Of a stretch of 64,000 bases of DNA, positions 1,102 through 64,000 are shown piece by piece. The position numbers and the translations under genes were made by a program. The number at the start of each line of letters is the position of its first letter. Positions within the stretch are counted from its first letter, which is position 1. The stretch is from Sphaerolaimus hirsutus (lineage: Eukaryota; Nematoda; Chromadorea; Monhysterida; Sphaerolaimidae), in the NCBI GenBank assembly GCA_964036195.1, contig OZ038456.1, positions 806,001-870,000 on the forward strand, written 5' to 3'. The notes beneath the pieces are model-generated. The model was not told where the DNA came from. It saw nothing but the letters and a program-made list of their open reading frames with translations, and did not search any database.

Positions 1102-4100
1102 CTGAAATTCGAGCGTTCACAGCGTCGATAACATCCAGATTTACAGCCCCCAATTTTGGCCTGCCGAAGGGAATGGGTCAGTTTGTGAATTTATTAATAT
1201 TTGATTTGGGCAGTAAAAACACCTACCGTATTACCTCGAATTATCTCCCCCCCCTTGAATTAAGCCGAAATAATAGACCCCCTCGAATTATCCCCCCTCA
1301 AATTTTGCTGGCGAAATAATAAACCCCCTGGGGGTATTTCGAGGTAATATGGTAGTTTGGTATGCTTCCTACTTTGTTTCGCCCTTGCATTTGCATTGAG
1401 CAACAAAGATTCCGCGTATATGAAGAACAAACTTTGAATCATTGACTACACATTCCTATTACGCAATATGATTTTGCAAACGCGATTTTTCATACGCAAA
1501 TGCGCGCCACCCAAAAATTCAAAAAAACAACAACCTTTTTTGACTTTTTTTCTGCCGCAAGCACCAAGGCCTCAATCTGAACCCACCTCATAAACTCCGG
1601 ATGTCTATATTTGGGCTGGTCATGCTGTTGCAACGTTTGTTCCTTACCACCAGAACCGGGAGCCGAATTCGGAGTGGTCGCAGGTGTTTTTTCGCCGCCG
1701 CCGTGCCGCCGTTGCGACGCCATCGCAGCGCGCACATCGGTCGTGTGCTGGATTTGCATTTTGAAATTGATTTTGGAAGTAATCAGGGGTCAATTCCAGA
1801 CCCTGTAAAAGTGTAAAGTAAGTTGTCAAATGTCGTGTAAAATGACAATAAAAAGATATTTTATTACTGAACTTTGCATGACGATTGACACTTTACTGTA
1901 CATTTGTGATGACAATGGACATTTTATATCTTGGTAGATGGATATCTAATCGGGTTGTGGCAGACGAACCGCTCAATGTACAGCGAGGTGCCGCACATGA
2001 ACGTTTTGCTGAACAAGCTGGACTAGCAATACATTCACTTTGTGTTGCGTGGGACCAAAGGCAGTGGCATTCATCTGCCGATTTGCATTTATAATTTGCA
2101 TGACATTTGATACTTTACCCCTTACATGGTCCGGTATTGGCACCAGGGGTGAATTCCACAAGTGGAGAAGTAAGAAACCGTATTAGAGGTGAGAGGTAAA
2201 GAAGTGAGAAGTGAAAAAACAAGTGCAAGAGTTAAAATCGAGGTGAACTTTTCACTCATCACTTCACTTCCCACTTCTCATTTGACTTCTCACTCCTAAA
2301 ATTGTTTGTTTACTTCCCCACTCTCGAAATTGGCACTGGGCCCATTATACTTACCTGCGCGTGGTTGACCGGACCGGATTCATTCTCCACACCGGTGTCC
2401 AACGGTTCCGGTTGCTGTTGTTGCAGCGTTTGGGCGGGGCCGAAAATTGGCGATTGGTTCGCAGAACGGTTCGGCTGCGATCTGGGCGACGTGGTTGGCA
2501 AGGCGCGGCACGCGGCTGAAAAGTAATTCTGTTTGAAAAAGGCGGATTTGATAAATACTTGAGGATTGAACTTTGTTGAATTGGGTACCGCTGGCGCCAC
2601 ACACGCTGGATGTCAACTGAATTCGTGTCAACTAAATTTGAGTGAATTATGTGATTTCAACTTTCCTATCTGATAGAGCATAGTTAATTTAACATCATGT
2701 CTAGGGTGTCAACTTTCCGTTTTCCGTTTCCGCTTTCTGCAGGTAAATGTTTTTCCGTTTTCCGTTCCATTTTCCGGCAAGTGCAAAATTTATTCCGTTG
2801 CCACTTCACGCGGGCAATTTTTTCCGTTTCCGTTTTCTGTTTCCACAGGAAATTTTTTTCCGTTTCCGCAGGCAAATTTTTTTCCATTTCCATTTTCCGG
2901 CAAGTGCCAATTTTTTCCGTTTCCACAGGCAATTTTTTGAGTTTCCGCAGACAAATTTTTTTCCGTTTCCGTTTTCCGGCAAGTGCAAAAAAAAATTCCG
3001 TAAAAATTTTTTGTTGACACCCTAAACATGACACCCAATTTGCATCGTTTCTATTAATTGTGCTGCTCAAATTTTTTGTTGTATTCAGTTGGCATTAACA
3101 CAGATTTAGTTGACACGAATGTCAACTAGCGTGTGTGGGCCCAGAGAACCCAAAAGAATTGCAGTGCCACACCATTTGGATCTTTTACAATATACCGCGC
3201 ACTGTCATTATCATGAACACACACCACCCAGCACACGGCTGCGTACTTCTGCCAGTACAAATTCAAGTTGGTCAACTCACCCATTTCGGCGGGCGATTTG
3301 AGCTGGGGCGCGTCGGGCGAGCCGGCCATGATGAGCGCGCTGGTGGCCGCGCCGTACTCTTTCGACGTGCCCACCTGCGACCGGGCACTGTTGATAAGTC
3401 CGCATTGGGCTCCCACATGCTAGTTGACATCGACACCAAATGTCAACTGGTGCCGATGCCGACTCAAAGCTCGCTGACGAGCCGACGATCGACGTTCAAA
3501 CGCAATCTTTGAATTGAGAACGGAACCAGTTGACATTTGCTGTCGATGTCAACTAGCGTGTGTGCGGCCATTCAGGGCTAAACCAGTGACATATTGATGG
3601 AATGCTACCACGCGCCACTATAGAGACCCTGTAAAATGTCAAAGGTCATGCAAGCAGAGTGTCCAAAGTCATGTCTTGAAAAATGTCAAACGTTCAGTAA
3701 AAAAATTAAATATAAATTTGATATTCTACAGGCATTTATTTGACTTTTGGTACTTTGAGTGACGTTTGACACTTTACATAGTTGGTGTGTGCCTCGTGCC
3801 TTGTGTGGATGCGGGCACCATTGGAAAATTGAGTTTTCGTACAACGCCCCTCTTTATGTGTAGGATGATATTGTAATGATACATTGGCGCCATGATATTG
3901 TCACGCCCCAATTTTCAAATGGCGCCAGTGTTAAATTCAATAGCGCCATTTCTGGGGGTCACTGCGAAGTCGCCAACTTGGGGGTGCACTAATACGCACA
4001 TCTGCCCGTTACGCACACTTGCCCGTTTTTTTTCACTTGACACTTTTCCAAGTGATTTCCAGATATGAGTGAAATGAAAAACGCTGCGCAATGACATTAG

Positions 4101-7100
4101 TGAACTTTTTTCACTTCACTCATATCTGAAAATCACTTGGAAAAGTGTCAAGTGAAAACAACGGGCAGATGTGCGTATCAGGCCTGCTCCGCCCACTTTT
4201 CTAAGCCCCGCCCAAAAACAAGCCCCGCCCCCAGCACACCTCCCTGCCCGTAGTAGCTTGCACCTCATTATTATTATTCAAATTAGCGTCCGCATTCCGC
4301 CGATTAATTTCATCGCGAACGTTATTGCTCAATCTAATGGCGGTGGTGTTCGATTTCGCCCGATTCAATGGCGGCTGCGCTGAGGCGGGCCGGGCGGACG
4401 GCCGCATCAAGTTCTCGTAGTTGAGTTCCCAGTCGAACGGGTCAGACATTTGTACGGAGAGCCTGTTTTGGGGGGGGGACTTTGGTTTGGAGGGGGGGCG
4501 TAGGGTTCAAACGGGATTGACTTTTCGGGATCGGGATTGGGATTCACTTTTTGAGATTTCGGGATCGGGATCGGGATTGGGGTTTCGGGATCGGGATTGG
4601 TATTTTTGAATTTCGAGATCGGGATCGGGATTGGGGTTTCGGGATCGGGATCGGGACTGGTAAATCCCGGAATTTCACGGGATCCGGGATCGGGATCCAG
4701 TTTGAACCCTAGGGGGGCGTTTGAAAAAAAAACCATTGAAACATCGAGTCACCTACTTCTGTACGTAAAAATCTTTAAAAAATTATATCTGCCTATACAA
4801 ATGTAAACACACTTCTATCGTAAATACATGGTATACACGGCGGACCGCAGAGTATGCGTCCAACACTACTTATGCCTTAGTCGGTAACACACCTCAGGAT
4901 ACTTATGCAAAAATGTTTTGAAAAGAAAAAGGGCGAGTCGATAAATGTTTTTTTTCCTGAAACATCTTTTACTTTTTTGAAAAATTTTGATTTTATAAAT
5001 AATGACGTCATGATGGAGCGTTTCGTTCAGAAAACTGCATAGAGTGCAGTTCGCAGAGTATACATGACTAGTTGATTTAATCTACACCAGTCACCAAGGC
5101 CTAGATATAAAATATAAAATGGCAGAAATCGACACCCCACTAACCGCTGCAGCACCTGTCTCAAACATTTTCCCAAAAATTCATAATCTGGCGTATCAAA
5201 ATAGGTCAACGTTTGTAAATGGTGCACAAATTCTACTAGCTCTTCGGGTAGATTCTCTAATAACTGCAAAAATTGTAAAATTATTGTTAAAATCCAGCAA
5301 AATCGAAATAAAAAATAATAAAAAAACCTTTTCAGGTTGGGTGCGTTCCTTCAATTTACCGACTTCGTCCTTGTCCTTGATTTTGCGCCAAGGTAAAGAA
5401 CCGTGCAAAAATTCGACAATCATGTAAAATAGTGACCACAGGTCATCTTGGCGACCCATTTCCTGCGGGACAAATAAAGTTTTTTTATCACATTACAGCT
5501 GATATCCAAAGGGTTTTTTTTCAGAGTGCAAATTTGGTGTGGGCTAATCGAGGGATGGGTATTCCGAAGGGGGTTATTTTTTCATAAGCTCGCTGGGACC
5601 GGGGGAGGTTTAGAGGTGGTAGTATTCGAGGGGGTATTTCGAGGAAATACGGTAGGTACAACAAATTGAGTAGACCAAAAAAACTATTAAAGCTGGCCCC
5701 TGGTAGTAGGGTCCAAATGGGATCAACTTTTCTAGATCGGAATTGTGGTTTTTAGTTTTCTGGATTCGGGATCGGGACCGGAAAATCCCTTTGATGGGTG
5801 GGGATCCCATTTAAACCCACCCAGGCACCAATTGAATCGGGGGGTGCACTGATACGCACATCTTCCCGATACGCACATTTGCCCGTTTTTTCACTTGACA
5901 CTTTTTCAAGTGATTTTCAGATATGAATAACGTGAAAAAAGTTGCGCAATGACATAGTGAACTTTTTTCACTTCACTCATATCTGAAAATCACTTGAAAA
6001 AGTGTCAAGTGAAAAAAACGGGCAAATGTGCGTAACGGGCAGATGTGCGTATCAGGCCTGCCCCAATTCAATCACCCAGTGAAAGCCCCAACAACCGACC
6101 TTGTTTCTATGCGCGGTGAGCGCGGCGTACCTGACGGTGCCCCTGAAACCGGCGGCCGATCTGGGCGACCTCAATTCGCCCTTGGCATTGAGGAACTGCC
6201 TGGCCAGGCCGAAGTCCAACATGTACACCTGCTTCGATGTCGACGGCAGCCGGCCCACGGCGAAATTAGACTGCCAAATGGGGGGGATTGAGGCTGGTGC
6301 GGTTACAGGGGCAGGGTGTGAAGGACTCGTTGAGTTGGCAACAACTGGGGGTGAAGTGTGATGACTTTGTGATCAGACCACTTCATTACAATCAAGTGCT
6401 TGTGCGCTTGTGAATTTCACAAGCGGAATTTTCGGTGTAACAAGCAGAAATCCCTATGTTTACTTACTTAAGCTGCGTTTACACTGCGACTTGTGCCGAC
6501 AATTCGAAAAGTGAAAAAGTTCCATAATTTTGGTATTAAGTTCCATATCTGCGAGAAAATGCAGTGAAGTATACTCACTAGTTAACTGCACTCACGTGCC
6601 AATTTGCAGATAAATCGTCCATGTCGCTCCAGAGTTATAAGCATTTGAAAAATATTTCCAAAAAAGCGAACCGACAAGCGGAATATTTTTTGAAATGCTT
6701 ATAACTCTGGAACGACATGGACGATTTATCTGCAAATTGGCATGTGAGTGCACTTAACTGGTGAGTATACTTCACTGCATTTTCTTGCAAATATGGTACT
6801 TTTTTCCAAAATTATGGAACTTTTTCACTTTTTAAAATTGTCGGCACAAGTCGCAGTGTAAACGCAGCTTTAGTAAAAAGTGCACAAAGTCAAATTTTGG
6901 CCAATGTGATTGTGAATGTCACAAGCACAAATTGGGACCTTGCGCCGCCTATGATCCAGGTGTATACTTAAAATACACTCAATTGTGATCCTTTGGCTGA
7001 ATAATTGTAAATATGTATACCGTATTTCCGCGAAATACCCCACCTCAAAATGGGCACTATGAATTTGTGGTCCAGGAAATGCATAACAGACGTTCAAAAC

Positions 7101-63803: not shown

Positions 63804-63817
63804 ATTTAGATGCTGGC

Positions 63818-64000
63818 TAGGGTGTCAAATTTATGTTTTCCGTTTCCGCTTGTCGCAGGTAATTTTTTTCCGTTTTCCGGCAAGTGCAAAAAATTTTTCC
63901 GTTTCCGTTTTCCTGCAACTGCAATGTTTTTCCATTTCCGCTTTTCCGCAGGCAAAATTCTTTCCGTTTTCCGTTCTCCGCTTTCCGCAGGCAATTTTTT
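63818..64000. mobile_element. hAT-like TTTCCG-array MITE, cut by window edge
   Basis: TAGGGTGTCAAATTTATG followed by TTTTCCGTTTCCG and GGCAAGTGCAAAA units. The other end lies beyond the window. Confidence 0.8.

Follow-up and report, generated by a model that had tools for sequence, protein, structure and literature searches.

Arrays of exchangeable short motifs in hAT transposons of Sphaerolaimus hirsutus as probable transposase-binding repeats

Positions 806001-870000 of contig C9 of Sphaerolaimus hirsutus (the window, 64,000 bp at full length) contain short transposable elements that share one plan, namely a short inverted terminus, arrays of one short motif at both ends and, in most, an 8-bp target duplication. 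Genome-wide, the ends of these elements occurred in thousands, the array motif was exchanged position by position on conserved scaffolds, and exons for the hAT dimerisation domain lay inside array-ended elements. The arrays are probably amplified subterminal binding repeats of hAT transposases with one motif per transposase lineage, and the swaps between motifs would represent changes in specificity; from the sequence comparisons we infer the binding of the motif, the coevolution of the two partners and the selection on specificity that would drive the exchange. The arrays are read as binding repeats because they are short, repeated, present at both ends and mostly CG-containing, follow the transposase lineage in the comparisons made, and change jointly. 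In the proposed course of events, hAT transposons, mostly short and non-autonomous, would have expanded their subterminal repeats into arrays that run through the element, with each motif marking one transposase lineage. When a transposase changed its DNA specificity, the units of its own element would follow and found a new family, in which the scaffold (outer terminus, spacers and unit positions) would be retained while the units changed to the new motif, and non-autonomous copies would then spread in thousands. All genome-wide counts refer to the assembly of 348,482,957 bp in 762 contigs.

All 14 elements listed in the initial annotation (length range 163-1170 bp) began with a terminus followed by the motif assigned to them and were genuine inverted-terminus elements. 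The exact inverted terminus, of the hAT-like (C/T)A..G type, was 9-17 bp long in 13 of them and 3 bp in the diverged element at 41142. The 8-bp target duplication, which had been described as usual, was present at 7-8/8 in ten elements (4501, 41142, 48372, 57968, 20435, 28855, 27846, 53404, 61728 and 51798) but not in the other four (2702, 30754, 56760 and 13299). The element at 56760 showed 4/8 at the terminus and 8/8 (GTTGGGTG) only with the left edge shifted 6 bp outward. Set A elements elsewhere in the genome had clean 8/8 duplications at four loci (L074, L075, L079 and L084). Being short, non-coding and of high copy number, with ends in thousands genome-wide, the elements were miniature inverted-repeat transposable elements (MITEs). 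The sets listed earlier were real, but their inventory had missed four elements in three further sets (29961; 29045 and 34057; 37225). The elements of the window were as follows.

2702..3024, plus strand: set A element, terminus TAGGGTGTCAAC, TTTCCG array (CGGAAA on the opposite strand) of 16 units in a single orientation, duplication 6/8
30754..31534, plus strand: set A element, terminus TAGGGTGTCA, TTTCCG array of 21 units in a single orientation, duplication 6/8
56760..57381, minus strand: set A element, CGGAAA array of 36 units in a single orientation
63818..64000, plus strand: set A element truncated by the window end
4501..4711, plus strand: set B1 element, TAGGGTTCAAAC then CGGGAT array, duplication GGGGGGCG 8/8
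41142..41691, minus strand: set B1 element, CGGGAT array, duplication GGCACGGG 8/8
48372..48781, plus strand: set B1 element, TAGGGTTCAAACGGGAT then CGGGAT array, duplication 7/8
60728..60990, minus strand: set B1 element with a single end located
16866..17090, plus strand: decayed set B1 end
57968..58598, minus strand: set B2 element, the B1 scaffold with CGATAT units replacing CGGGAT, duplication CCTGGGGG 8/8
13299..14468, plus strand: set C element, TAGTGATGGAAA then GGTGCC/CGGTGC arrays, without duplication (2/8)
20435..21331, plus strand: set C element, TAGTGATGG then GGCGCC arrays, duplication CATGTCAG 8/8
28855..29017, plus strand: set C element, TAGTGATGT then GGCGCC/AGCGCC arrays, duplication 7/8
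27846..28558, plus strand: set D element, TAGGGATGG then units of A-run, GCGC and T-run, duplication GTCACAAG 8/8, nested in 27499-28594
53404..54064, minus strand: set D element, TAGGGTTGG then units of A-run, ACGT and T-run, duplication CCTCGGCT 8/8
61728..62433, plus strand: set D element, TAGGGTTGG then ACGT units, duplication ATTTTATC 8/8
59961..60273, minus strand: partial set D element, TAGGGATGG, ACGT-type units
36427..36669, minus strand: partial set D element, TAGGGACGG, ACGT and GCGT units mixed
51798..52597, plus strand: TTTTA element (no CG), CAGGGTTGG then TTTTA array, duplication CTCAAGAT 8/8
29961..30276, plus strand: set F element, newly found, TAACGATGGC then 7 CGAAAATT units in a single orientation, duplication 7/8
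29045..29489, plus strand: GATAGATAG set element, newly found, CAGGGGTCTCC then CTATCTATC runs, duplication 8/8
34057..34554, minus strand: GATAGATAG set element, newly found, CAGGGGTCTCC then CTATCTATC runs, duplication 8/8
37225..39447, plus strand: 2.2-kb element, newly found, TAGCATTCGAAAAA then ATTTATATAT runs, duplication AGCACTGC 8/8

A scan blind to arrays, which called an exact 9-bp inverted terminus starting with YA together with an 8-bp duplication of at most one mismatch, returned 17 window elements, the mean over 30 dinucleotide shuffles being 0.1, and a comparable scan of a 200-kb sample of contig C1 returned 22. When the outer 15 bp and any near-homopolymer were disregarded, 25 of these 39 elements carried one 6-mer in at least three copies at each end, compared with 3.0% of 3000 control pairs, and 22 carried one in at least four copies per end (0.77% of the controls), which agrees with the earlier proposal that array amplification is a regular feature of these families. 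The arrays of one or two among the 25 (L058, L067) may be spurious, and the best shared 6-mer of the D elements was TTAAAA, from the A/T runs, and not the CG core. The 14 elements that failed the 6-mer test included the GATAGATAG elements at 29045, at 34057 and in L056, of which the first two fell below the threshold because their shared 6-mer had only 2 copies per end, as well as array-less elements, e.g. 19682-19867, 27499-28594, 54472-54620 and 62475-62862. No exact copy of the array motif was present within 300 bp of either flank in 14 of 15 elements (the 14 listed and 29961), the exception being TTTTA. The arrays are thus internal and are not independent microsatellites that merely abut the termini. 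Termini and target lengths were not unrelated between copies either, since the termini recurred genome-wide and 8-bp duplications were found in the 200-kb sample. For TAGGGTTCAAACGGGAT and TAGGGTTCAAACGATAT the inner part of the terminus was the first array unit, as had been proposed. The TTTTA, GATAGATAG, ATTTATATAT and AAACAC sets had no CG, unlike the other units.

Elements of these sets were also found in nested or composite arrangements. The host of the element at 27846, at 27499-28594, was a CATAGGCGGCG-ended element with an 8/8 duplication CCGTGGTG. In L072 a CGATAT element (2424-3193, duplication GGCACCGG 8/8) was inserted in a set C element (1268-3324), which had GGCACC/CGGTGC arrays and an 8/8 duplication of its own. 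L063 249-1051 was by eye a composite in which a D-family body relic lies between a small CGGGACC element that is complete and a second CGGGACC half; an 8/8 duplication encloses the composite, and the two ends seem to have moved foreign DNA together. The CGGGAT element at 60728..60990 had in its middle a 21-bp unit repeated 5.2 times at 97% (60882-60990), and the middle of the element at 48372 held a segment similar to this region without the 21-bp array. AAACAC/AACTCA repeats were found in CAACGATGG-ended elements (L054 7272-8451 and L057 2316-3463), which form a further set and whose terminus resembles TAACGATGGC.

On the common B scaffold, TAGGGTTCAAA was followed by either CGGGAT or CGATAT units. 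The stretch TAGGGTTCAAACGATAT-GACTTTTCGATATCGATATT of the B2 element (57968-58598, minus strand) corresponded to TAGGGTTCAAACGGGATTGACTTTTCGGGATCGGGATT of the B1 element at 48372, with three units changed at the same two bases and the remainder identical but for one indel, a gap that was placed by eye where the aligner used two. The pattern TAGGGTTCAAACGN{3,9}ACTTTTCGNNATCGNNAT matched 4509 sites genome-wide and its reversed-pattern control none. Among 100 of the 4509 sites that were listed, all on contig C1 and classified by eye, 73 were all-CGGGAT, 22 were all-CGATAT and 5 had one or two decayed units; none mixed CGGGAT with CGATAT. The CGATAT form occurred 1263 times genome-wide with a pattern two bases shorter, and a CGGGAT first unit was followed by a CGATAT second unit at 0 sites and the reverse order at 0 sites. 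In the DNA examined, arrays were present at 30 of 32 B ends (17 CGGGAT, 9 CGATAT and 4 CGGGAC), none with two or more units of another type, and single foreign units occurred. Because the units were exchanged together on a conserved scaffold, the variety of motifs is not one of independent microsatellites, and the swapping of motifs on one scaffold indicates transposase-binding sites rather than independent amplification. The outer terminus, too, can differ while the array scaffold is retained: L062 reads TAGGGTTGGGACGATATGACTTTTC at 552, the B2 scaffold behind a D-like terminus, beside TAGGGTTCAAACGATATGACTTTTC, and TAGGGTTGGGA ends occurred in L077 and L081 with CGGGTC and CGGTTC arrays.

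The D family showed the same kind of alternation, with ACGT, GCGC or TCGA following TAGGG[A/T]TGG. The element at 27846-28558 aligned over its full length with those at 61728-62433 and 53404-54064 (BLAST, approximately 71-74%). Its end cores were GCGC in 8 units, ACGT in 1 and other NCGN in 7, and those of the other two together were GCGC in 0, ACGT in 11 and other in 7, a GCGC:ACGT contrast of 8:1 versus 0:11 (Fisher p 7e-5, the units not being independent). In the array columns T>C plus A>G outnumbered C>T plus G>A by 29:5, and the ratio in the body was 30:37. The D-end pattern TAGGGNTGGN{0,6}AAAAANCGNTTTTT, whose exact flanking runs favour intact copies, matched 5198 ends genome-wide and its control 0. 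The first-unit core in 100 ends listed of the 5198 was ACGT in 76, GCGC in 17, TCGA in 5, ACGG in 1 and ACGC in 1, so that 98 of 100 were palindromic; both N positions were free in the pattern and the palindromic bias was therefore not imposed by it. This bias suggests binding by a symmetric dimer. Within the same 100, the 21 TAGGGATGG ends had GCGC in 17, ACGT in 3 and ACGC in 1, and the 79 TAGGGTTGG ends had ACGT in 73, TCGA in 5 and ACGG in 1. For set C, in which 13299 aligned with 20435 and had GGCACC replacing GGCGCC at spaced units, the motif exchange appears weaker than for B or D; the scaffold matched 1772 sites, and 100 of these that were listed were nearly all GCGCC. Deamination of CpG was considered as the cause of the change from GGCGCC to GGTGCC and rejected: the element at 13299 has 0 GGCGCC and 22 GGTGCC yet retains 30 CGGTGC, which makes a general loss of CpG unlikely.

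The elements were identified as hAT by their 8-bp duplications and by exons for the hAT dimerisation domain (PF05699) inside array-ended elements, as the initial annotation had assumed. A total of 28 PF05699 matches were found genome-wide, and the 12 loci examined held 14 of these, including the eleven best-scoring. The exon was enclosed by both ends with a 7-8/8 duplication at 8 of the 12 loci, and a single array end faced it at four.

L074 (2513-3740), L075 (1518-2728), L079 (2426-4375) and L084 (468-1596): set A, exon enclosed
L082 (798-3985) and L083 (1611-2999): set B2, exon enclosed
L077 (1739-3004) and L080 (2574-3576): CAGAGTTG set (short CGTAAA runs), exon enclosed
L073 (set F), L076 (set C), L078 (set A) and L081 (set B2): single array end facing the exon within about 0.45 kb

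As a control under the same rules, 600 random 200-bp intervals were drawn from the window and the 200-kb sample, of which 18 (3.0%) were enclosed by a terminus pair and 102 (17%) had a facing terminus within 450 bp; the eight enclosed loci are therefore strong evidence and the four one-ended loci weak when taken alone. Enclosed hAT exons were thus found in A, B2 and CAGAGTTG elements, and no hAT exon was found in B1 (CGGGAT), D or TTTTA elements among the 14 of 28 matches examined. In a comparison of 11 domain sequences (L083, L084 and the second L073 copy being left out), identity was 56-100% for sequences sharing a motif and 19-66% for those with different motifs; the splits by motif had support of 0.83 for set A, 0.93 for B2 and 0.96 for the CAGAGTTG set. 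In L073 (C626:1-9900), two set F ends with a hAT exon were duplicated approximately 3.83 kb apart.

The two arrays of an element were in general not mirror images: clearly asymmetric motifs mostly ran one way through the element. TTTCCG was counted at 16:0, 21:0 and 0:36 in the three set A elements, GGGATC at 10:0 in 4501 and 13:2 in 48372, AAAATTCG at 7:0, and CGGGAC in the 200-kb sample at 9:0 and 9:0 at both ends. Orientation was only biased in 41142 (1:5), 57968 (16:4) and TTTTA (28:8), and was mixed in 13299 (15:7). The inverted repeat therefore consists of the terminus only or, in B elements, of the terminus plus the first unit (TAGGGTTCAAACGGGAT, TAGGGTTCAAACGATAT).

Tandem repeats in MITEs and satellites derived from them are reportedly known, to judge by the titles of Hikosaka and Kawahara 2004 (a Xenopus MITE), Coates et al. 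2011, and Scalvenzi and Pollet 2014. The Xenopus MITE and the lepidopteran mobile microsatellites resemble the present elements as small non-autonomous carriers of short tandem repeats; unlike them, and again judged by title, they concern a single family with a single repeat, whereas here the exchange is coordinated and linked to transposase lineages. Going by excerpts of the respective papers, Herves transposase binds CGATTCAT, of which four direct copies are sufficient (PMC3143072), Ac transposase binds AAACGG cooperatively with three copies reported as required (PMC3260210), and Tgf2 has 17 and 18 repeats per end, in a paper that names subterminal repeats at both ends as a defining hAT feature (PMC4890040). 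These hAT elements, as far as the excerpts describe them, resemble the present ones in having a short family-specific motif at both ends beside a short terminus and an 8-bp duplication, and differ in that here long arrays fill much of the element, many families coexist in one genome and several share a scaffold with exchanged units. On its opposite strand the set A array, (CGGAAA)n, contains AAACGG by inspection, which is a similarity only. Galileo and Tetris also carry repeats in their ends, and an excerpt on the P-type Galileo describes further transposase-binding sites in the terminal tandem repeats (PMC3688188); their arrays lie in long inverted repeats, whereas those described here mostly have one orientation beside short inverted repeats. 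In the titles and opening abstract lines of the open-licence papers listed, no families differing by wholesale repeat exchange on one scaffold and no coevolution of subterminal repeats with a hAT transposase were found, and the terminus letters matched no transposon paper by title among the matches listed. A search on the sea-urchin TU elements, which are similar, returned one paper. Scans for relatives outside this genome gave 13, 1 and 9 stretches in viral contigs and 21 in GTDB genomes, none of which showed an array, the first 14 being read over 180 bp behind the match and the other 30 scanned over 900 bp; a lone terminus-like match 54 bp on was seen in one of these 44 stretches (L031). Overall, subterminal repeats and tandem repeats in MITEs are already known, and what looks new is their extent and the wholesale replacement of the motif.

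Repeats inside MITEs could also grow by slippage as functionless passengers, with motif differences due to drift. Such repeats and their satellites are reportedly known from the titles cited above, length varied between copies (the complete B1 elements in the window, three in number, measured 211 to 550 bp), and some sets are simple AT repeats. This explanation is unlikely because slippage predicts none of four observations: spacers and unit positions were kept while units changed jointly, mixed copies in the first and second units numbered 0 genome-wide, 98 of the 100 listed D cores were palindromic, and motifs tracked transposase lineages. A process that spreads one variant unit, namely gene conversion without selection followed by fixation of the motif by drift before the element amplifies, would account for the homogeneity of units within an element, and amplification from few founders would also hide intermediates. 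However, conversion would require tracts of just a few bp in order to alter each core and leave the spacer GACTTTT and the A/T runs intact, and the inverted outermost unit changed together with the inner units of the same orientation; concerted evolution of this kind appears quite improbable.

Two further explanations concern the structure of the arrays. Foldback elements of the FB, Galileo or Tetris type have long inverted termini of tandem repeats, and they share with the present elements inverted repeat-bearing ends, 8-10 bp duplications and a link to satellites (PMC4079207, from an excerpt). One 157-bp element with mirrored ATTTTA arrays (L054 9286-9442, 1:3 at the left end, 4:0 at the right end) was the sole, short case of this layout. 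Most asymmetric motifs kept one orientation at both ends, so that these are not foldback elements, and the true inverted repeats were short (9-17 bp, 3 bp exact in 41142); a foldback origin is very improbable. Insertion into pre-existing microsatellites, by which the arrays would be target DNA, has a precedent in pineapple MITEs in (TA)n (PMC8449440, also from an excerpt). It is refuted for practical purposes, with only a negligible probability left, because the duplications lie outside the arrays; the arrays are inside the termini, and the flanks of 14 of 15 elements held 0 copies of the motif.

Several observations weigh against reading the arrays as binding repeats that follow their transposase. 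No full transposase or BED zinc finger was identified, a BED finger being absent from 134 scanned of the window's 191 open reading frames (ORFs) and not sought in the transposase-bearing elements, so that the change in specificity is not seen in the protein. The B1 and D families were without a hAT exon among the matches examined, and identity between motifs reached 66% (C versus the CAGAGTTG set), which overlaps the range within motifs. The counts of mixed copies cover the first two units only and only units of CGNNAT type. Some partial D copies mix ACGT with GCGT, and the pattern is less regular in those that end at 36669 and 60273. The swapped set C scaffold is rare, with GGCACC in both units in 0 and in one unit (mixed) in 3 of the 100 listed. 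The TTTTA, GATAGATAG, ATTTATATAT and AAACAC sets look more like ordinary low-complexity repeats, and the arrays far exceed the three sites reported as necessary for Ac, so that much of the array length may be passive. Neutral expansion may account for the array length and for the AT-rich sets. More tentatively than the binding itself, the families could record a series of hAT specificity switches around a fixed CG, in which units were rewritten in place (CGGGAT, CGATAT, CGGGAC; ACGT, GCGC, TCGA) and inviable intermediates were lost.

The only clear host gene fragment in the window was a tau-tubulin kinase exon at 6055-6372 (minus strand). No transposase domain was detected in the 134 ORFs scanned of the 191 (≥75 aa), and no Rfam families or tRNAs were found in the window. 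A protein search with the spurious ORF of the element at 61728 returned nothing at E 0.001. The C2..HH-like stretch at 37407-37532 and the ORF at 20683-20889 were rejected as protein leads, as neither had a Pfam match above the cut-off (APCDDC at E 0.018 for the latter). Within an open frame at 39772-39971, a 21-bp unit (CCAAAATGGTCAGAAAAATGG) was repeated 9.5 times at 100% identity, apparently a very recent minisatellite.

These elements bear on the question of how a transposase can switch target ends and yet keep its own element, and of how non-autonomous families escape or follow. They also supply dispersed short arrays, which an annotation would otherwise label as microsatellites. Sister families with different array motifs on one scaffold are available in thousands of copies, with transposase exons attached to several of them, so that binding domains could be matched to motifs in a test of transposase-site coevolution.

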